Source of the DNA: Lyophyllum atratum | Lineage: Eukaryota; Basidiomycota; Agaricomycetes; Agaricales; Lyophyllaceae | Reading direction: 5' to 3' | DNA length: 64,000 nucleotides | Assembly (NCBI GenBank): GCA_014905825.1 | Contig: JACGCN010000007.1 | Coordinates: 2,075,372-2,139,371, forward strand | In this document: positions 47,695 to 63,030 of the stretch, one piece after another | Numbering within the stretch: position 1 is the first letter of the stretch | How the letters are laid out: the number at the start of each line of letters is the position of its first letter | Notes under the pieces: model-generated | What the model was told of the DNA's origin: nothing | Databases searched by the model: none | The model's input: only the letters and a program-made list of their open reading frames with translations | Made by a program: the position numbers and the translations under genes

Positions 47695-50600
47695 ATGCTA
47701 CCTTCCCTATCTTCATCGGTCACACAAGGAATGCTGAATGGCAACCATGTATCGCTGTCATTCACGTCTACTTCTACTGCCTCGTTCATCTCCAACACTG
47801 TCGCCGATTACATTCAATCCGAAATCGCCCCTGTCATCGTCGTACCCACCCATCATGGACCTTTCACCTGTTCCATGACTTTGGGCGTAGCTGATTCAGA
47901 GACAGACGTGCTTTTAGGCTTAAATTGGTTAACTTACTATCGTGAATATTGCATGTCTCAAAACTTCACTCCTCCAACCATTACGTCCATAATCTCCCTT
48001 TTCAATGAAAAACTGCGTCGTACGTCTTCTTCCCATCCATCCCTTATTCCATTCTCATTGCACTGTAGTCCCTGTGCCGCGGATCACGTTTCGTAACACG
48101 ACGTCACTTTATAATAACCATGATAAACCCGATATTCCGTCATCTTCTCCATCTCCTGAAATTGTAAATTCTGCCTCTGGTGCTGTTCCCACTTCTACTA
48201 CATCCAATGTCCCCATAAATATTGTCCAAGCGATTCGCTTTGTCAATCCCTTTCTGTGCGACAACACGTCACCTTTATTTGAACATAGTGTCGATACCGA
48301 TTCTTACTTACGCGCCCATGGTATAGCATCAGTTGACTGGTCTGACAAAAGAAAAAGAACAGCGTTCACCCATCACCTCATAAACGGCCTATGCGCTAAT
48401 AGCGTATCTCCTGGATGTCGCGAACTTGCCTCTGATTTATGCGTACACGACTTATGCCTTTTGATAGGCTTTCAAATCCAGGAATGGTCATTGTCTTCAT
48501 CTAACACTCACCTCCGTCTGATCTGCGAATCTCTGGGATATACTGGTTTGTCAGAGAAGAAACAAATGCTTAATGTTCTAGCTACACGTTTCGGCACTTT
48601 AAAACATCGTAGATCTCAAGATGTCACCGTGATATTTAATAACTTATCCAAGACTACAAGACCCGCATTGTTATCATTATGCGCCGCACATGGCCTTCCT
48701 GACCTCGGCGTTCGGACGGATCTGTTCAAAGGCATTGTGCGCCACATCGCATCTGCCCATTGTTACTCCGCCCATATTTCTTCTCCACCCGCATGCCAAG
48801 CAGTACAGGATTGTTTCGAAGACGCTCATGTCTCCCAAAACATTATAGAAGCATCCATTCTACATAACTCTGTCCGCACGTGTGGAATCCAGACACTACA
48901 ATCAATACTAGACATCAAGCACATTCCATACACGTCCCTAGACAATGCACACGATCTAAGAGTAATACTTGACCGTCACATAACTTCTCTCAGTCACCGT
49001 GTTTTTCTCCCTCTCAGAATGCTATCCCCGGTCACGGACGACACAGCCAGTAAACTGCAGACAATTTCTTCGGAATGGCCACAGATTTCGCCTTCGTCAA
49101 TAAAAGATGGCTGCCAACGTCTCTTCCGTGACATGACATCTTCTGCATATCTGTCTGAACGCTGTTGCGCATCTTGTGCCGAAAATGTTCTTCGTAGGCA
49201 TTGTAAAGAATATCCATTGTCTTCCATCCCTCACGAATTACTACGCCGTCCTGATTATCACATCATTCACCCAATCGAACAGGATGGAGAACTCGAAAAT
49301 GTTGAAGACCAGGACATTCATGGTTCTGCGTGGTTACACGAAGACGTCATATCTCCAAGTATGCCATTCGAAGAAGGACGATTGAAGGACGTTCTTGTCG
49401 CACCTGAAGGGATCTTCGTCGACGTCACCACAACAGACATCACAATTGCTCTGTGCGATCCATGTCACTCGTCATTAACAAGACATAAATTACCCCAAAT
49501 GGCGCTGGCAAACCGCACGATGCTTGGTGATGTTCCACCTGAGCTGGCGGACTTGACATCGGTGGAAGAGTCACTCATAGCTTTATGCCATACAAAGTGT
49601 TGGATCTTACATTTGAAAGACTCCGACACGAAAGGGGTAAGCCAACGAGCAGTGAGAGGCCATGTCATGGTCTATCCCCAAAACCCCGGCGTTGTTGCCG
49701 ACATCCTGCCACCATCTATAGAACAGATTACGGCTTACATGTGCATCATGTTTGTAGGTTCTGTACGACCAACTGATGAATGGCTCCGAGAGCATGCGAC
49801 ACCCCTCGCGGTGCGGGCGAACAAAGTTCGACGCGCGTTAGTTTGGTTGAAGGCCCACAATCATCTGTATTCGCATATAACTATAAATGAGTCCGTGTTG
49901 CTTCAACTGCCGGAAGACGGCCTGCTTGACTACCACATCGAGTTGGTCTCCTCATCGTCGAACCAAGAAAGTCTTGTCTCAGGATACGAGCCGGACCTTT
50001 CTCAACGTTCAGAGGACATGAACGCGTTCACCGCTGCTGAGGGAGTGCTGCATAGCATCTTGATCTCCGATCTTGAAGGTCACGCGTCATCCGCACAACT
50101 GAAAGCAGCCGCCATGCGGCACATTAAACATAAAGGTGGTGACTACTTGCAAATGCGTCGTGGGTCTAACTTGGTTAACTGTTTCGACAATCCTACTATG
50201 TTTCCCATGATGTATCCGACTTTGTATCCCTACGGCATAGGTGGGTTCGACGACAGCAATCGGAACGTTCGAATCTCCACCAAAAATCACATCAAGCACC
50301 TACTTCGCCTAGCTGACAAACGGTTCCAAACCCACCACTCTTTTATCTTCTCCGCGTTTAACATGCTCCAACGTCGGACTTACTTACTTCACACTCACTT
50401 GAAGGTAAAAAAAATGACATTTCCCAAGGTAGCGCGTACATTCGAAGGAATTTCATCGGAATCTCTTCACGGTGTCGTTGAACGCTTTGCACAAGGTGAT
50501 AACACAACCGCCTACAGCGAACAAGAACGACAAGTGATAGCACTGATGAAAGAGGTCACTATGATAACCTCCCATGTTTCGGGATCTGATGCATCAAGAG

Positions 50601-51085
50601 CCATTATGAGAAACGAAATTAGAGCGTTGACCACGACTTTGGGCATGCCTTCCTTCTACGTCACAATAAATCCAGCCGACGTTTACAATCCGCTTCTGAA
50701 ATTTCTGGACGAAGGTAATATGGACATCGACAACCTCTCTGTAAACGACATTCCTCAATTTATGCCGCAATCAACTCTTATTGCACGTAATCCCATCGTT
50801 TGCGCGAAATTTTTCAACATTTACATCAAAGCCTTCCTTCATGCGTTGCTTGCGTGGCGTTCGGACCCCAACGACGTCCAACAAGGCATTCTGGGACACG
50901 TCCGGGGTCATTACGGCTGTGTCGAACAACAGGGCAGAGGATCGTTACATGTGCATTTTCTACTTTGGGTGACAGGCTCTCTTGATTGCCAATTTCGAGG
51001 AAAGGTTTGCCTTGAGCCTTCATCTCAAGAATTCGGGCTTTCTTGGTTGGGGTACATGCAACCATGTTGGAACGGATATTTGTGA
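47695..51085 (+). pseudogene. Helitron Rep gene, truncated before helicase
   Basis: Two exons join in phase through a 49-nt intron (48020-48068) into one frame of 1113 residues. The N-terminus resembles a retropepsin-like fold (GMLNGNHVSLSF, TASFISNTVADYI, DVLLGLNWL) but has Ser where the catalytic Asp should be. The middle carries DUF6570 (LALANRTMLGDVPPELADL, VRGHVMVYPQNP, ALVWLKAHNHLY). Then comes the Helitron-like N-terminal Rep region (MYPTLYPYGIGGFDD, FFAFN-like IFSAFNMLQRRTYLL, VTINPADVYNPLLKFL) and the HUH metal motif GRGSLHVHFLLW near residue 1069. It stops about 45 residues later. The catalytic tyrosines and the whole Pif1-like helicase are missing, so the protein could not mobilise an element by itself. 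No downstream frame restores them. Confidence 0.82.
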
Positions 51086-52011: not shown

Positions 52012-55000
52012 GATTCCAGGATAGCTTCCGCAAGATTTGGCTGCTGTTTAAGACGGCTGGCAATGAAAAGTGTGTAAGCATGCGCAATGGGCAAGCGACC
52101 GATCCATTCGTGTCGACGTTTTCTAGTCTTGCTGATATGTACTTCAAACCAATTAGCGACCTGAGCCCTTTCTACAATGGAAAGGCTTCCGACATGAGGC
52201 ACAATTGTCGTCGAAGTATTCTTGTTGAGAGCTTCGAGCCATGATTTGGCCGGTATAACTTCGTCGTCTAGCTCGCTTGGCGTGTTAAGTAGTTTCTTGA
52301 GGATGTCCACATTGGCTAAAAGGGCATGATCAACTTCCGCAGTATAAGGAACACTGGTAGGATCCGCAAGAATGTCCTCTGATGTCGGAACTTCACAGGC
52401 ATGGCGCCACTTTCCAAGCTGTAATGTCTTTGTTAGTACTCTTGTTTGATTAAAATTGGCTTTACTGACCCGAACATTTCTTCTACCCATACGATCTAGC
52501 CATAAGGAATCGATGATGTCTTTAAAGGCCACCACGGTGGTCGGAGTCTCGCCTGTGGGGATTTCGAAGTTGCATTCCCGCCACCAGCGGACCATCCAGC
52601 TGGGTTCCATACTTTTGATCGGCTTCACAAGACGTACAGGATACCAGAAGTCCCCACGACGAGCGAGGGCTCCCATTCCAGGCCTTATCAATATCTTCAG
52701 TATACGTCAATTCGGTTTCTATCATAGGTGAGCTTACTTTAAACGGTCTTTCATAGGTTTATTCAAACCTATACGAGCTTCTATCTGTCTGCAACGTCAT
52801 TTAGTTACGAGAGATGCAAACTGAACAAGATATACTTACTTGCGCTTGGAGATCCTAGTAAGCTGCTGGCGAGGTAGGAGGTATGACGGATCACAAGTGT
52901 CGCAGATAAATCTATCCTTCTTTCCAAGATTGCTCGCCCTCGCATCTCGCTGGCAAGCAATGTGAGACCATTCATTGCACTCATCACATTGGATGGCCTC
53001 CCCATCTTCCTCTCGGTATAGCCTATTTCCATCGCCATGTGTTCCACACCGACAACTCAAGTCAAACTCGGAGTCAGGTAACAAGGATTTCGAAGAAGGC
53101 GCACGTGTGACGGAGAGCGATGTAATGTGGTGCTTGGAAGGATCTGTGATGTCTAGGGCATTCTCACTAACTCCTTCCTCCGATTCTGGTGGATCAGGAG
53201 AAAATTCGAGGGAGATCTGGGAGAGCGGTGATGCAATGCGAGTGCGCGAGAGATACTCGGCGGTGCGACTTCTGTAAGGATTGACGATCCAAAACCGTTC
53301 CTTCTTATCCATCAGAGTGAAATCGGGGTGAGGGTAAGACATTGTGAAGGGTTTGTCGAGTGTGGTCTGGGAGGGGTGGATGTTGAACCGGTCACGATAG
53401 GCCTTTGCGCGCAGTTCAAAGAACTTTTCCTGCGCCCGCAGACCGCCACGGAGGTGATAAAATACTTGATGAATAGCATAGCCTTCCGGGAGACGAATCT
53501 TCTTTCCAGATAAGTGCGTAGAAACCTTCGCATCGCGTTCCTGAACGGGATATCCGTTGTGCAACATTCCATCATAGGTATAGATATTGTCCTCGAATAT
53601 GTAGCGTGCAGTGAAGTGACTTTCTGCACGATTAACGAGTGCGAAGCCTATGAGATCGTATACAAGGCCATCATCCTCTGCTGCAGCCTTCGAGTGGGGA
53701 GTGATAGTGGACGGATATTTCCAGGATTGAGTCTCGATGTTGTCGTCATGGAGGGATTCATCACCAATTTCGATAGCAAGCACAACGGGCAACGAGATGA
53801 CCAGACCTTTAATATCAGTCCGAGTCCCAGCGCAGGAGGATATGCCGTCTTTGAATCGCCAGCAGGACGAAGAGGGAATTGGCGATTTGTCAACGGAGAA
53901 ATAATCTTTGAGGTAGTTCGCCAGACTTCCGTTATGTTTTTTGTACATTGTGAGGCCAACTTGGTGGATCCCACGAAGATGTGGGGTCTCGGAGATTTCG
54001 ACGTGGGGACCTCCAATTTTTGACGAGCCCGAGCAGTGGTGGATATCAATCAGGACAGCCTGGAAATAAAGCCCGGCACGGAATGAATCAGGAAGTTCGC
54101 TTTCCCGTCGAGCAAGCTCAGAAAGCCATACCTAGTGCCAAGTAAGTAATATTAGATATACAGGGATAAGGCGTACTTACGAATACAGACTCGAATGTAG
54201 CTAGGCCGCCAATAATGCGCTTGTTGCGAAGAATCTTTCTCAAAGCTTCACGTCGCTTTAGAAGGGTTTGAGAGGCGGATGCATCCTTCGGGTCCACAGC
54301 TCGCTGGGTTTCTAACGTCTCATACAGCGCACGAAGTCCGGAACCTTTGGGCAACAATTTGAACAGTTGCGAGAATTCGTCGAAGCTCCTACTGGTGGCA
54401 GCGAACAAAAGCTGAAGAGCGGTGTCCAACCAACATGAGTTTGAGCTCCAAGGATAACTTGCAGGGCCTAGAAGCGGTGCGCTCGGCTCCTTGGCAGTAT
54501 CGGGGGAATGGTGATTCGCTTTACGCTTCTTATCCTTTGTGTGAACAAGCTCCTTGGCGGTATCGGGAGGACGGCCATCGTTAGCTTTACGCTTCTTCTC
54601 GTCCGGCTTTACAGCCCGTGTCGGTTTCGTGCGACCGATGTTATTCGCAACGACCTTCCAGGGCTCTGTCTGGCCATATCGAATTAGTGCACCCTCTAAT
54701 ATACACGTTGATCAGTTTTTGAATAAATATCAGACTCAGGAGCTACACACTTGTTGCCCCATGGTGAAGCCGTTCATAATATACAGCTGCGGCGTGGAGC
54801 GCCCGCATACCTCCAAGAAAATTGTGGTCCTTTCCGCAGCCACTGTAGAGCTTCCAATGCATCGCTTCCTCTGCGTTCGTCGTGCTGGGAAGAGAGTCCC
54901 AGACATCAATATCCATGGCGCGTTCAGACTCGAAAAGCCTCGATGCATTTCCAGGTCGCATCCACCAAGAAAGCCATGACTCGAGCTTAGGGTAGTCACG

Positions 55001-55164
55001 TATTATGAGGGCGCAACGGGACAAGAATTCTCCCGTGTCAGGAGCGTCGAGAAGAGCCATTGCACGAGCGACAAAGTACTCGGTCATGTTCGGAGGAACA
55101 GCTCCACTAATCCGACTGACTCGGGTTACACCAGCTCGAAAATGCTCCTGGCATCCGCGAATTA
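51957..55164 (-). pseudogene. outer transposase gene, C-terminal part (USP and PHD)
   Basis: Downstream part of the gene split at 55165-61360. Exons 55164-54751, 54695-54181, 54131-52840, 52788-52738, 52683-52470 and 52418-51957 join in phase. Starting EALIRGCQEHF (minus strand), it holds the last part of the transposase core (SLPSTTNAEEAMHWKLYSG; the Glu may be the third catalytic acid), then a USP/C19 deubiquitinase-like domain with Cys box SSNSCWLDTALQLLF (Cys near residue 711 of the intact protein) and His box AESHFTARYIFEDNIYTYDG (His near 968), then a PHD finger (CRCGTHGDGN, AIQCDECNEWSHIACQRDA, FICDTCDP), and a conserved end (GALARRGDFWYPVRLV, VPYTAEVDHAL). Its own sequence has no other break. 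Cut off from its promoter and start by the insertion. Confidence 0.85.
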
Positions 55165-55172
55165 GAGCCTCA
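55165..55172 (+). repeat. 8-bp target-site duplication, left copy
   Basis: GAGCCTCA immediately before the left inverted repeat. An identical octamer lies directly after the right inverted repeat at 61353-61360. Confidence 0.92.
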
Positions 55173-55194
55173 CAAGGGGGTGTCGGAGTTTAAA
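55173..55194 (+). repeat. left terminal inverted repeat of inner transposon
   Basis: CAAGGGGGTGTCGGAGTTTAAA. It pairs with the right end read inversely: the first 10 bases are identical, then one substitution and one single-base gap within the next 12. Confidence 0.92.
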
Positions 55195-55533
55195 TATCGC
55201 ACCAAGGGTCGGTCGGTCGGTTCGAGGATGGGGTCACTAAATATTTTTTGGACCTATCATATTTTTGCATGGAAATCGAGTATTTGGCTGATTTACCGCC
55301 TCACAAGCAACTTGAAATGGCCAGATGAATGACGTCACTGTGTGAGGGGCGGATTTTGTCCAAGGGTAACCAAAATCGACCCTCAATTTGACTAAGCGTT
55401 TGGTCACATGATCATCGTCATGTGTCTCAAATCTCCAGAGATTGCATCCCAAGAAAATCGTCGCAGCACGAAAATATATTCCATTACTATCCTATTCTCA
55501 ATCTATTCTACGGATACATACTCAGCTAATATT

Positions 55534-58500
55534 ATGGACCTTCAGTCGGTGAGAACATCTACTGCATGAATTATTAAATTGCTGACCATAATATCTCTAA
55601 TAGACGGCGGCATGGGTGGTTGACGCTGACGGCTTTGTAGAATGTCCAGAATGCGGGGAAAAGAAGCGAGCGGGTGCCGCGGGAGTTGGCAACATCCAGA
55701 GGAACCATGTCGGTTCCCAGATCTGCAAGGACAAAGCTGCGAAACGGAAGAAAGGGGACAGAAAGAAAAATGCCTCACTACTCGATTTTTTTCAGCGAGG
55801 GCGCCCGATGCCAGTGCCGTCAACAGTGACCAGTGATCCGGTCATCCAGACAGCTGCTCTACCCCCACAAATTGGCCTAGAAACTCCATGTGAAACACGC
55901 TCCGAACCCAAGACAACCACGGCACCTACTTCATCAGCATTTCTGCGTCGACTCCAAGAGATCTCGGATACCCTCCCTTCGACGATCCCCGAGGCAATTC
56001 CAACAGACCCGTTGGCCCAGTTCGCAGACCCTGCCGCACATGACAACACCGAGGTCTCGCCGGACGATCTGTGGGAGGAAGCGCTGAATCCTTTCCTGAA
56101 GGGGGTATTGGGGTGGGGGAATGATATCGATATGGCGACCGTAATCCGACGTGGCAAGCTGGGATTTGGAGGGTTGGTGGTGTTTGTGAAGTACTTTACA
56201 GAGACGCGAGGTGTGAACGAGGCGCTGTTTGAAGGGAAGTTGACGAATCTAGTAGAAAGTGCACTGAAAATCATGTTAGTATTGATTTGCCCTCGAAAGA
56301 GCTACTGACTTACATCCCGCGAATTCCAGAGCATCCGAGCCACGCAACCCCTGCCCAGAACAAAGCCAGCCCCAGCTAACCACGCCTAAACCCATCGATG
56401 TAAACGAAATCGACGAAATCATCGAAATGGTGCCTGCTGGTGACTCCAAGGCTGTTAGCAAGCATATAGCACGCTCCATCGGACCTAGCTCACCTCCCAG
56501 CTGCCAGGGCTTTGTCCTCGACATCCCTGACGGACAGTCACCCTATACCATGTACCCATACGGCCTTCATACCCTTCATCGCTTGCCGTGGAACCCCTAC
56601 ATCGACTCGAATGGGATTCTCAAGCTCTTTGCTCATGGATGCAGTAGACAACGTACCTCCGCACAAGAATCCTGCATTGCATGTCGTGCCCTTCGTCACA
56701 ACAGTATCCTGGAGGGTATATTAGATCGTATGGAGCATGGTGTTGCAGAAAACACACCGTTTTTGTACCATGGGATCTCGGGTCTCACAGAACTTCTTAA
56801 ACGTAAAAACGAGCGGATCGAGCGCCAGCATCTTCGAGGCCTGGTCCAGGCAAGGAGCCTCCTTGGGAAAGCGACTGCTCTTGCTGACCACAAGCGATTC
56901 ATGGTGGCAATGGCAAGTGGAAAAGTCGAACGTGTCGACCGCTTGGTAAGGATTGCCTTGGGGCAGCAGAAGGGAATTCGAGCTGTCTTGAAGCTGTTTG
57001 ACAAAGCCGCACAGGGTCTCTACAAGCCAAAAAGTTTCAGTGAAGAAGACGAGATGCGGGGCTTACTTTTATGGCGTCTTGGGGGTAATCGATTGGCCTA
57101 CTTCGCAAACAAAGCCCTTGGCCTGCCCAGTGTCAGCACCCTCCGCACTCGCACCATCATGCCACCCATTATTCCTTCCCATGCCAGGCCAACGACCGCG
57201 GAGATTGAGGCAAACATAGTGGCAAGCTTCGAGAGTGTGATGGATGTGGTTCAAGGGCAAGGGACCGTCCTGCATGCAGTACTGATGTTTGATGAGATCG
57301 CATCCGAAAAGAGAATCAGGCTTGATCGCCGGCAAGACCTCTTTCTGGGAGTGTGCCGAGAACACGGGCACAGGACATCTCTCGAGTTCACGACGGCCGA
57401 TGACTTGGAGGAGCTGTTCCATGCACTCGACAGCGGGGAAATTCATTATGCCGCAGAAGTATGTTGTTCAATCCCATTCAAAAATGTTGCTAAACATGTA
57501 TACTATTCATAGGCTACTGTAGGCGCCTTAGGAGTGCTTTGCGAAAATAATCGCATCTATCCTGCGCGTGCCATTCTGGTCTCTGGCGACTGTAAGCAGG
57601 AGACTGGCGCAGAGCATGCCGTTGTTCTTCAGACCGCAATTGATGGCATAGATAACACACGTACTGAAACCTTCAAAATTCGAACTGTATCCATCGCCTC
57701 CGATGGTGAGAAGCGCCGGGGTGTGGCCATGGCTCAACTCACATTCAAAAAACAGCTCGAACCCCAATCCGATATCTTCCCGCTCCTGTCTGGATTGAAA
57801 TTCATGGATATGCATGTCGGCGACGACGATTTGACATGCGACAAGGATTGGAAGCACCTCTTTAAACGGCTTCGAAATCTCCTTCTTCGAGAGCGAGGGA
57901 TAGTTGTAGCAGGAATCCGTATCACGCCGGCAATTCTTCGTGCTCATTTTATCTCCGAAGGAGCTACGGCAGACCATATTCGAGCGACATTTAATCCTGA
58001 CGATCTTCAAGATGTCCGAATCGCGTTTGATATGCTTAAAGACATCTGGACACTTCCGAGGACGCCTTCGAAGCCCAGCGCTTCTCCTGGTTTCCAAAAT
58101 ACACGAGACGCACTCTGGATTTTCGGGCGGGTTCTCTTTTACCTCCTTGTTCCTTTCCTTTGCATCGACCTTACCCTCTCCGAGCAACTGGAACATCTGA
58201 GCGCTGCGGCACACCTCGCCATGGCCCTTTACCGCAAAGTTGGGAAGGACTTTCTTCCTACCGAGCTCTATACCGACTTGATGCTTATGATCAAAAACAC
58301 CTATTTCTGTGTCGCCAAAGGCAAGGTCGATAACCCCCGTGAATCATTCTGGATTATCCTGCTAGGGACCGACAGGTTAGAACAACTATTTGGAATTTTA
58401 CGCACAATGGTTGGCAATAATGTGAATGTCGATCTCTATCAACTTGTCGAGCGCTTAAGCGGAACCACGGAGGTGTCGAATATCCTCGCGAAATATCCTC

Positions 58501-61213
58501 ACTGGGACCGCGGCCCACGGCGCCTCAAACTGCCTACAATCACACGAGAATCACAGCTAGTTGCGAGACATGACCACATTACTCCAGCAACGTGGAAAGG
58601 GGACGTGAGATTGTCAAATGTCACCTTACAAACTTGCTGGCGCCGTGGCAGACGTATCATCGAAGAAGCATTTTCTATTTATGCTGACTTATTCGCAACG
58701 ATGGAGGACGAAGAAAACATCACAATCTTGTCACCCTCTGGCCAGCTTCTAGTGAACATCCCCCTTCCCAGTGACGACATTGACGAGAGCGTGGAGGAGA
58801 TTCTCCTCGGGATCCAGCCTGCTCAGCCTCAAGAACACAGCGATGCCAACAATGCCACTAGTGCTTCTGAGGACCAAGTGGTGATCGAGGATGCAGTAGC
58901 TGCCGAGATGGTACATGACGCAACACATGATGATGTTAATCACGATCCTGCGAGCATCAAATCAAGGAACATTTTATATCGAGGCCAGGAAATGTCGAAG
59001 ATAAAGGCACTTAGCTTGTGTAGCAAGTACCGGACGTCGGCTGGATCCACCGATCGTCTTCGACGCGTACAGGATATTGGCCGTCATTTTAGCGCCCGTT
59101 CAGCGAAGTCCGACTCCTGCGTCGACTCGGATAGTGGCGGTACGAGCTCGGGGCTTTTGTTGGTCACTTCAGATCCCATTGCCAGCCTCCTTCGTTGCAA
59201 TGACCGGTACTGGTTATGTATTGGTGAAGTTAATGGCTTGAAGGATGACGGTGAGAGCGTCGATTTCATTGAACACGGCCAACTGGCGGAATCGACCATT
59301 ATGGTATCCTATCAGCTCTTGGGACTACGGCCGACGGATTCGTTAGATGACCCGACTATGAAGATGGACTGGCGAACATACCAGACGCCTTCCGAGCTAT
59401 CATTCACGGTTCCTGGGCGCTTGATCCAGCCCATCAACCCCGACACTTCTGAACCACAATCCGTCGGCGAGAAAGTGTTCTATCTCCTCGAGAGTCGTGT
59501 TCTCGTAGCGCTGGCGGCCAGTATTTTCCAATCGTTGACTGCGACTGAATTTAAATCAGTGCCTCGAACACCTGTGAAGCCAGAATATCCTTACCGGGAA
59601 CGATTAGGTATGATTTTCTCTTGCTGTCGGTGTATCTGGCCCGCACTGAGGAATGACCTAGGAAAGGCAGCATTTTTATGTCAGAGCCAATCAGAACCAG
59701 AATTCGTGGATGGACTTGACCTGGACAATCCCAACTCCATATCTTGTCCCCTCTGCACGTTGCCCAGCATCTTCCTTGATCTGAAACATGGCCAACGAAT
59801 CCTCGAGCATCTCGGCGCCCATATCCTGTTCGACAAAAATGTTGCACGCACCGACGAGCCCTGTGGGTGCTGTCTACGGCCCGGCGCTGTCTGCCTATAC
59901 TATCTGAAAAAGGGAAAAGGCTCTCAGGGAAAGCTGAAGATCGACACGGAACGCACGAGAGCGTGCCCCACGAAACTCACATTCTCGTACAGCGTTGCTG
60001 TGGAGTCAACACAGACAGCTCCCTGCAGTAATGTGCCGATTGCTTGTCCATCGTGCCCCAAGCTGGAACCTGCAGTGTGGCGCTACAATTTGAAACAGCA
60101 TTATTTACGTGCGCACCCCAAAGTCGACCACAACAAGTACGCCCACCTGTGGGAGCTCTCGAACTTCGAGATCGCTGAGATGAAAGAAATATGGAAAAGG
60201 CGTCAGCGCGTGGTGGTGAGAAGAGCAAAGAAGAAGACAAACACACCGGCTCTTGTCATATCGGATGCCCATAGATCTCAAATCCCTGCAGGGTATGTCC
60301 GTTGAGATTGTGGCGACTTGTCGATGATTTACTGAACGTTCGTACCAATTGCTATCGTTCCAGTTCCCGCGAAGTATTGGCAAATATTGATGACGATTCT
60401 GAGGAGGACGTTCGCTCGGACGAAGATGATGAGAAAAGCAGAGAGGACAACGACGAGGAAGTGGGAGGAGACAAGGAGGGTGAGACAGAAGCAGTTGACG
60501 TTGACAGCGATCGTGTGAGTGGTAACACTGCGGCTGAACCTTACGTAGGGTTTCCTGTCGACAATTACGTCCATGAGAACCCCGCGGATTTTGCGCGTTT
60601 GACGGGAGACGACGACGAAGCGTGCACTGAGGGTGCAACAGGTTTAGTAAGTGTCAAAACTTCAACATGAGCACAGAATGACTTACATTTCTTCAGGCCG
60701 CTCCTCCTGTGGCACTAGCCATAGAATCTAGCAATATAGCGGGTGGAGACACTGAATCGACTGCGGTTGCAGGTCCTGAGCAGCAATCGGAAATTGCTAG
60801 TCCCACGCCCATCGCATCAACAACTCACGCAGACGGACATCCGGCTAGTAGGACTACTATACAGTCCACCTTACCTCCCTCGACTTCTGCTGTCATGATC
60901 GCAACGGAGGATCTTCCAACGGGTCGATTTGGAAGGAAGAGGAAGGTCGTCCAAATACATGGCTTGAGCGACTGTGAGTGCGGACTCCAGGCAGATCCCA
61001 AGGCCAAAGATGTTGTGCAGTGCAAACGGGAAGCATGCGAAACGGGATGGGTAAGTCATTTCAAGTATTCTATTGCCGACATAATGCTAATATGCTATTT
61101 AAAATATTCAGTACCATCTACGCTGCATCGGACTTGAGTTAGCGCCCAAGAATTGGGTGTGTAGGACGTGCAAAACGTCAGGAGGAGGGAAAGCACGAAA
61201 ACGACAACACTAA
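55534..61213 (+). CDS. transposase of inner element, 1777 aa, DDE core and PHD finger
   Basis: Seven exons join in phase (55534-55548, 55604-56274, 56330-57458, 57513-60292, 60364-60646, 60697-61050, 61112-61213), summing to 5334 nt. N-terminus: zinc-binding pattern CPECGEKK...H...C (about residues 17-45), probably for DNA binding. Core: HAVLMFDEIASEKRIRLD (Asp550), VSIASDGEKRRG (Asp669), DLTCDKDWKHLFKRLRNLLL (Asp715, His720), and LGTDRLEQLFGILRTMVGNN (Glu895). This order, with the D..H.K..RN step, resembles the RNase H core of P-element/THAP9 transposases. Then a conserved region (CNDRYWLCIGEVNG, SFTVPGRLIQPINP), a Cys/His-rich block (CPLCTLP, DEPCGCCLRPGA, ACPSCPK, WRYNLKQHYLRAHP), an acidic stretch, and a C-terminal PHD finger (DCECGLQ, VVQCKREAC, WYHLRCIG, WVCRTCK). 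No stop or frameshift inside. Similar unnamed proteins recur in mushrooms (from memory). Confidence 0.85.
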
Positions 61214-61331
61214 TTCCATAAATAGAACGCAGATCACCCAATTCGGAAATACATATCACGTGTTTGCTTACGTTGGCCGGTCGGTTCAAGAAACTCACCA
61301 CTAACAAAAAATTCGACTCTAGTTCATGTAT

Positions 61332-61352
61332 TTTAAACCCGCCACCCCCTTG
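61332..61352 (-). repeat. right terminal inverted repeat of inner transposon
   Basis: Read on the minus strand from 61352: CAAGGGGGTG, then GCGGGTTTAAA. It mirrors the left repeat. The present premature stop of the outer gene's N-terminal part (61333-61335) is created by this repeat. Confidence 0.92.
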
Positions 61353-61360
61353 GAGCCTCA
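61353..61360 (+). repeat. 8-bp target-site duplication, right copy
   Basis: GAGCCTCA, identical to 55165-55172. Confidence 0.92.
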
Positions 61361-63030
61361 GCGGCAGCTTTCAGTTGCTTTTCTGACCGTGAGTCATTCG
61401 GATGCGACCTCCAGAAGTCTACGAAGGCCGCTACGAAGCCTGCATATTCAGCCTGGCTGAAATCCATCACCTAATTGACGAAAAAGTAAGTATCCACGTC
61501 ACAATGTGAACTGCGGTGTTAATTACCCCAGCGAATAAACGATCTGTAACCATAATTTTCTGAGCTTCCGCCTCGTGAGCAATGCTCTGTAGAACTGCGT
61601 CGAAATGATACTTGAAGTGCTCAGCACTGGCGCCATTTGTGTACGACATCACTCCAGGAACCCAGCAAAAGAGATTCGGACAGTACGTAGATGTGATCAT
61701 GAGGAGAGAGTTCCGCTCCTTCCACCACCCATGTGCTGCATCGTTAACTGTTCCATTTATCGGACCTTCGAGCAGTTTCTCCTTCACCAGCTGGGAGCGC
61801 ATGAATGGTGTCTGAACTGAGACGACGGTCACGTCGCTCAAGACGGAGTTGATGACGAAATGGGGATGCTGGGAGACAAAAGAGGAAAACGCAGCGATAA
61901 ATCCATCACCACCGACTTCCGTACCCTTCTTGATCTTTTGGCGCTCCTTACTGACCCGATCAGCATTCAACAAGACGTCTGAGATGTCTGCGACCGAATC
62001 CCCCGGTCCTTCTATCCCAGGAACTCCTACAATCAATCCGAGAGGCCCGACCTTTGGATGGGAGTCGACAAGTTCCTGGAAACGGCGTGCCTCGTTGGGA
62101 AGGAGGTGGAGAATATGTGAAGGTCGACGATGAAGATGAAAGCCTCCGTTGGAATAATGGATGCCTCCCGAAAATGTCCACAGCTCGGAGCGAATGTTGC
62201 ACGGCTGGTGGAGAAGCCTCGCGCCGCATGCGCACGGTCCACGCAGCTGGGAAGCGATTCCCTGTGGCGTAGTCTGTGGGCGAGTGACCACTTCACAATC
62301 ACGGTCATCACATTCCATGATACCCATGCAGCGCCGTGTCGATTTTTTCCCTCCCTGCCAGTCCATTGCATGCGAATCTCCCTTACGATCTCCCCCAGAA
62401 ACCTTCATCGCCCAGTGAGCCTTCAAATTGTTTGTCTCAAACACTTCGTTGAACGTGAAATCCCTTTCGAAAAACCCATCCGGCCATCCATCCCAGTCCG
62501 TTACGGTTGGTGTTTTACTTGATGTTCGTTGATGATGAGCTTCGGCAGGGGTAGGACATCCAGATATTTTCGCAGGTGGGCGGGATTCGCTTTTCGTGAT
62601 GGTGGGCGCTGCGAGGGTGACATTCGTCTGAGACTTGATCTCTGCGTGACACATGATATCAATAGACGGAAGTAAATGACGTGAATAAAATACATTACCC
62701 TTCTTTGGCGCTTGTAACTGGGAAAAATTGCCCTGCCGTGGCACGTAGGCGATGATTTGACCTTTGAAATGTATGTTCACAACGAGAAAAGATAGAAGGA
62801 ATCTATACTCACCATTAGAATCATACAGAGGCACTGAATTTTGTAGAAAAGCGGTAAGATCAGCTGGGGGGAGTGGGTTATCCTGCAGCTGGTGCCCAGT
62901 AGCGCCTGATACGCTCTCATGAGGCTTGTCTGGTACAAAGTACCGATATATGTGCTGAAAGAAGCCCTGATAAACAACATTCAGTCAGTATATCATTCAT
63001 TAGTGAGAAACAATCACACACCATAACCAT
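61353..63030 (-). pseudogene. outer transposase gene, N-terminal part (GCM zinc finger, MULE core)
   Basis: Upstream part of the split gene. Exons from a tentative ATG at 63030 (63030-63022, 62966-62813, 62761-62699, 62641-61527, 61470-61353) join in phase. It begins GFFQHIYRYFVPDKPHES and QIIAYVPRQGNFSQLQAP. A GCM/WRKY-type zinc-binding domain follows at about residues 120-240: DWDGWPDGFFERDFTFNEVF, CMGIMECDDRDCEVVTRPQ, LRGPCACGARLLHQPC, GFHLHRRPSHILHLLP. Then the MULE-like transposase core: VVSVQTPFMRSQL, VNDAAHGWWKERNSLLM (Asp near 376), YTNGASAEHFKYHF and MVTDRLFAG (Asp near 441). After KAAAEA the inner transposon begins and brings a stop at 61333-61335, so the natural product would lack the last acidic residue, USP and PHD parts. 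Confidence 0.85.

Follow-up and report, generated by a model that had tools for sequence, protein, structure and literature searches.

Is the 6.18-kb unit near the end of contig C119 of the mushroom Lyophyllum atratum a complete transposon, and if so, of which kind? We addressed this question in a window (the whole stretch of DNA analyzed, 64,000 nucleotides) that forms the final 64 kb of C119, in a genome of 64.76 Mb. The initial annotation had described the unit as a DNA transposon, complete and flanked by a target duplication of 8 bp, a description now supported by other copies that share the same ends and are flanked by different octamers. The unit is very probably an autonomous DNA transposon that moves by cut and paste and belongs to a P-related fungal lineage, encoding a transposase of 1,759 residues with an RNase H-like core. 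The kinship to P elements is an addition of the present analysis.

Ends of the element and its copies

The unit (55173–61352; 6,180 bp) is bracketed by two GAGCCTCA octamers (55165–55172 and 61353–61360). The left end starts CAAGGGGGTG at 55173, and the reverse complement of CAAGGGGGTG stops at 61352. Ends of the type CAAGGGGG are found at both borders; the two match at 13 of the first 14 bp and at 20 of the first 24. Ends, octamers, and length were exactly as initially annotated. The border features are as follows:

55165..55172, no strand: left 8-bp target site duplication, GAGCCTCA
55173..55186, plus strand: left terminal inverted repeat, CAAGGGGGTGTCGG, 13/14 match to the right end
55205..55211, plus strand: left subterminal motif AGGGTCG, bases 33–39 from the end, putative transposase-binding site
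61314..61320, minus strand: right subterminal motif AGAGTCG, bases 33–39 from the right end, differing from RGGGTYG at one base
61339..61352, minus strand: right terminal inverted repeat, CAAGGGGGTGGCGG
61353..61360, no strand: right 8-bp target site duplication, GAGCCTCA

A degenerate end pattern (up to two mismatches) was present at no fewer than 17 sites in the genome (at least 17, compared with none for a reversed control pattern). Among the 27 stretches examined, 10 elements had both ends and an octamer duplication, and the ten octamers were all different; the scan demanded an octamer match of at least 7/8, making the duplication part of the selection, and few end pairs were tested per stretch. 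Given the pattern sites, the silent control, and these 10 copies, the element ends are not a product of chance. The copies are as follows:

Window copy: 6,180 bp, octamer GAGCCTCA
C119:2044071–2050250: second full copy, octamer GCTGATCC
C90: short copy, 554 bp, octamer ATGTGACG
C2: short copy, 541 bp, octamer GATATGTT
C75: short copy, 540 bp, octamer TTCAGAAT
C86: short copy, 541 bp, octamer ATTATAAA
C74: short copy, 1,471 bp, octamer AGTATAGT
C81: coding relative, 6,080 bp, octamer TATTTGAC
C141: coding relative, 6,109 bp, octamers TCCCCAGC and TCCCCACC (7/8 match)
C69: coding relative, 5,720 bp, octamer GGTAAATG

The longest stop-free stretches of the short copies span 77–141 codons. The right end alone was seen at eight further places, some of them at contig ends or only partly covered. 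Of 22 ends, 16 have the motif RGGGTYG, a putative binding site, beginning precisely at base 33, and allowing one mismatch raises the number to 19; the motif is present on both sides and in diverged copies too. The second identical copy is excluded from this count, and closely related short copies contribute 10 of the ends.

The second full copy on C119 lies ∼80 kb away in the opposite orientation and has no differences from the window copy (0/6,180). Its flanks (1,500 bp) had no BLAST match to those of the window copy, and its octamer is different, indicating transposition and not segmental duplication. There has thus been one recent move within this genome lineage. Drosophila P elements favor targets ∼50–150 kb away (PMC7776569); the ∼80-kb spacing in this genome is a single pair and forms no pattern.

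Stretches with other relatives were also scanned generally for inverted ends flanked by an 8-bp duplication, and no convincing new pair emerged; two pairs (C125:127311–130596 and C119:2129169–2138150) were dropped as chance-like. Three relatives on C66, C24, and C73 (L026, L027, L028, L029, L073, L074, L075) are piecewise 95%–100% identical, have a common octamer (GAAACTGC), and continue alike for 140 bp past the right end with two differences; they were probably amplified within a larger unit and not via their own ends. The starts of C96, C64, and C75 (L017, L018, L019) have the same first 80 bases and carry a relative's right end at base 567–573. They are contig-end repeats, perhaps subtelomeric, with an embedded copy.

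The insertion site

Joining the flanks of the window copy through a single octamer restored a 179-codon open stretch on the minus strand, which aligns by eye with the 146-codon stretch of an uninterrupted paralogue (C65:250357–250793). The paralogue matched the joined flanks in two pieces of 73%–74% identity, and the full alignment ran without a gap across 600 bp (354/600 identical), with 42/60 identical positions immediately left of the junction and only 31/60 immediately to its right. The borders are doubly supported, by the octamer duplication and by the restored frame, as had been claimed, and the search for an empty site that the initial annotation had suggested yielded this paralogous one.

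That the unit is a host gene or domesticated transposase lying between chance repeats might be argued from its homologues, which are annotated as ordinary hypothetical genes. The identical second copy with its different octamer, the short relatives with the same ends, and the uninterrupted paralogous site refute this at the window locus, and we consider its probability negligible.

The interrupted gene spans 54743–55172 and 61361–62834 (minus strand) and matched no Pfam model. It may be a member of a repeat family or another mobile gene, and the insertion could then be a nested one. An open reading frame at 52836–53948 (minus strand), whose PHD finger passes the cut-off (E 5.9e-6), may be the distal part of the same gene. 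Farther out, a 1,026-residue open reading frame at 48005–51085 (plus strand) matched DUF6570 (E 7.1e-38) as well as Helitron_like_N (E 5.6e-35), which places a Helitron ∼4 kb from the element.

The transposase gene and its relatives

A single gene fills the interior, as first described. Its length of 1,777 residues did not stand, because the frame reads through a 54-nt intron (59608–59661; 18 residues); the corrected prediction has eight exons, GT..AG introns of 50–71 nt, and 1,759 residues. Splice sites were assigned by eye and by homology. Of 120 aligned homologues, 84 span the intron site, and 82 of these lack the stretch (four or fewer of its 18 residues). The gene, all on the plus strand, is laid out as follows:

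55534..55548: exon 1, GT..AG by eye
55604..56274: exon 2, with a C2HC-like zinc motif, CPEC...H...C, at 55643–55735
56330..57458: exon 3, with the first catalytic Asp, D550, at 57291–57293
57024 (codon in exon 3) to ∼58494: P-like core
57513..59607: exon 4, with D669 at 57702–57704, the D(2)H pair D717–H720 at 57846–57857, and E895 at 58380–58382
59608..59661: in-frame intron, 54 nt, GT..AG, without counterpart in 82/84 spanning homologues
59662..60292: exon 5, Cys/His-rich region
60364..60646: exon 6, acidic linker
60697..61050: exon 7, with the PHD-like finger beginning at 60973
61112..61213: exon 8, with the rest of the PHD-like finger and the stop codon

The earlier view that this protein type is widespread but unnamed held up. 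A query with the core matched 204 proteins at E ≤ 0.001 among 7,987 scored, and one from a distant subgroup matched 190 among 7,996. Among the matches listed (the best 120 in each case), the named entries were hypothetical, uncharacterized, predicted, or zinc-finger-domain proteins, mostly the first two, from species that we take to be Agaricomycetes. Residues D550, D669, D717, H720, D892, and E895 are among those that are near-invariant (≥93% of 121 aligned sequences). In 32 diverse members, the catalytic equivalents D462, D510, H513, and E687 were conserved in 32/32 and D344 in 31/32. Annotated homologues in L. atratum itself include P0004, P0009, P0065, and P0121 (on C81, C141, C69, and C86, respectively). 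P0009 (annotated at 1,935 residues) has a hydrolase-type domain (PF12697) fused to the transposase, probably a gene-model error.

A whole-protein Pfam scan gave only matches below cut-off: Robl_LC7 (E 0.019), PHD (0.039), ElaD_SseL-like_N (0.18), and PHD-1st_NSD (1.5). Sub-cut-off matches of single exons to ElaD_SseL-like_N and FliN_N were taken as chance.

Probable kinship to the P element

Transposases of the P superfamily are defined by an RNase H fold that carries the residues D, D, [C/D](2)H, E at similar spacings (PMC8230255). The fungal group has these residues in the same order, with D in the D(2)H pair, and conserves them, but the first spacing differs. The 8-bp target duplication is likewise as expected of this superfamily. 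The predicted fold of a relative, P0010 from Arthromyces matolae, was closest to P transposase, with the next fold ∼8 lower in Z and an identity of 14% over the aligned fold. The match joins residues 256–725 to P 153–569 and covers P 339–528, as a range and not as residue pairs. Between core strand 506–509 and helix 684–697, the P0010 model consists mostly of helices (the insertion domain), predicting for the window protein a mostly helical insertion that separates the last core strand from the E895 helix. The Pfam model of P transposase, PF21787, was found in nine of 32 members (best E 8.4e-4); in P0010 it matched residues 334–365, including the catalytic D344, and stayed below cut-off in this member.

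Several observations weigh against this assignment. The first two Asp are 119 residues apart, compared with 73 in Drosophila P (the further spacings are 48 and 178, compared with 36 and 192), and the predicted model has extra strands between them. The structure model is that of P0010 standing in for the window protein, with a predicted local distance difference test (pLDDT) score below 50 at 98 of 1,073 residues. No Pfam model exceeded its curated cut-off for the window protein: PF21787 was missing from its matches at E up to 5 and from those of all six distant-subgroup members at E up to 1, and the scan of the window protein found no THAP domain. Sequence searches of the PDB returned irrelevant matches and no transposase, and the distant subgroup had no end pair in the stretches examined. 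Two scans were uninformative or empty: PF21787 had no match genome-wide, with 14 control genomes equally silent, and none of the 12 pattern matches from a scan of viral contigs was confirmed. Up to residue 100 of the window protein, Cys occurs only at 19, 22, and 46, with His at 40, which is not the spacing of a THAP domain. We did not file the element as an animal-type P element, because the test for THAP was negative and sequence homology stays below threshold.

These points raise a tentative alternative, namely that the element belongs to a separate superfamily, sister to P, RAG/Transib, and hAT, having in common with P only the RNase-H-plus-insertion plan. The absence of an above-cut-off match to any P model, the THAP result, and the wider Asp spacing speak for it, as do the extra C-terminal modules, CAAGGG ends that differ from those of Drosophila P, and the finding that RAG1, Transib, and Hermes follow the same general plan at lower Z than P transposase. 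The Z gap, the PF21787 matches with the one located over D344, and the P-type D(2)H motif speak against it. Such an unnamed mushroom superfamily, sister to P and not inside it, could stand behind hundreds of "hypothetical" Agaricomycetes proteins; it would be marked by ends of its own (CAAGGGNG), a subterminal motif at a set spacing, nonautonomous short copies, and a chromatin-reading tail (a PHD-like finger, possibly a SAWADEE-like fold).

Proposed mechanism and significance

For the P-related transposon that we favor, transposase would bind the element ends, perhaps via the base-33 motif, and the element would be cut out by metal-dependent hydrolysis. Both ends would then be joined to target DNA with an 8-bp stagger, repair of which would leave the duplication; the short copies may have been moved in trans. 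Guanosine triphosphate (GTP) might serve as a cofactor, as in Drosophila P, since the modeled fold match covers the insertion domain. As a guess, the C-terminal PHD-like finger may read histones and bias target choice.

Among the papers returned by searches of the open-licence literature on fungal or P-like transposons, none names the family in its title or abstract opening. The description "undescribed" stands within the reach of these searches, and an entry in Repbase or a subscription paper, outside this scope, is possible. Defined ends and a duplication turn "hypothetical" mushroom proteins into a testable transposon group and would allow cleaner gene counts. With two identical full copies at a distance of 80 kb, activity can be tested directly. 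An enzyme related to that of P, with no recognizable THAP, could show which parts of the P mechanism (GTP use, and a long stagger, 17 nt in P; PMC7776569) are core and which are animal additions, and the element is a possible gene-tagging tool for mushrooms.

Comparison with known systems

Transposons of the hAT type have CA-type ends and commonly a BED zinc finger, and the CAAGGG end fits their loose consensus. A hAT origin would also agree with the 8-bp duplication, which Hermes and its kin share (PMC12730594), and with a BED match in one of 32 relatives (E 0.0048). We disfavored it as very unlikely; the hAT dimerisation domain had no match in the window protein at E up to 5, a weak negative given that the P model missed the same protein.

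Elements of the KDZ group (Kyakuja-Dileera-Zisupton), a large transposase group known from mushrooms, share the host range, and the duplications of Zisupton are 8 bp long (PMC12730594). In Laccaria bicolor, two Kyakuja families duplicate 7 bp and terminate in CA..TG, lacking inverted repeats (PMC12730594), unlike the element. No KDZ model matched the window protein (E up to 5; again weak, as the P model missed it too) or appeared among the 25 of 34 families shown for relatives, and a KDZ identity is extremely unlikely.

RAG1 and Transib share with the modeled fungal transposase an RNase H core carrying an insertion domain. The P-like elements of zebrafish (THAP9, Pdre2) resemble the element in that their inverted ends are short, at 13 bp, and are accompanied by inverted repeats in subterminal position, 8-bp duplications, and copies with internal deletions (PMC7776569), and differ in their vertebrate host and THAP protein. 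Compared with Drosophila P (PDB 6p5a, 6pe2), the fungal protein is long (1,759 residues), has a zinc motif and a PHD-like finger where no THAP was found, and would act on different ends (CAAGGGGGTG). The two share the 8-bp duplication, inverted ends with an internal motif repeated at both ends, and, in the model, an RNase H core that holds D, D, D(2)H, and E and an insertion domain at the same place. Among known systems the element works most like the P element; it may have branched deeply within the P superfamily or belong to a sister superfamily.
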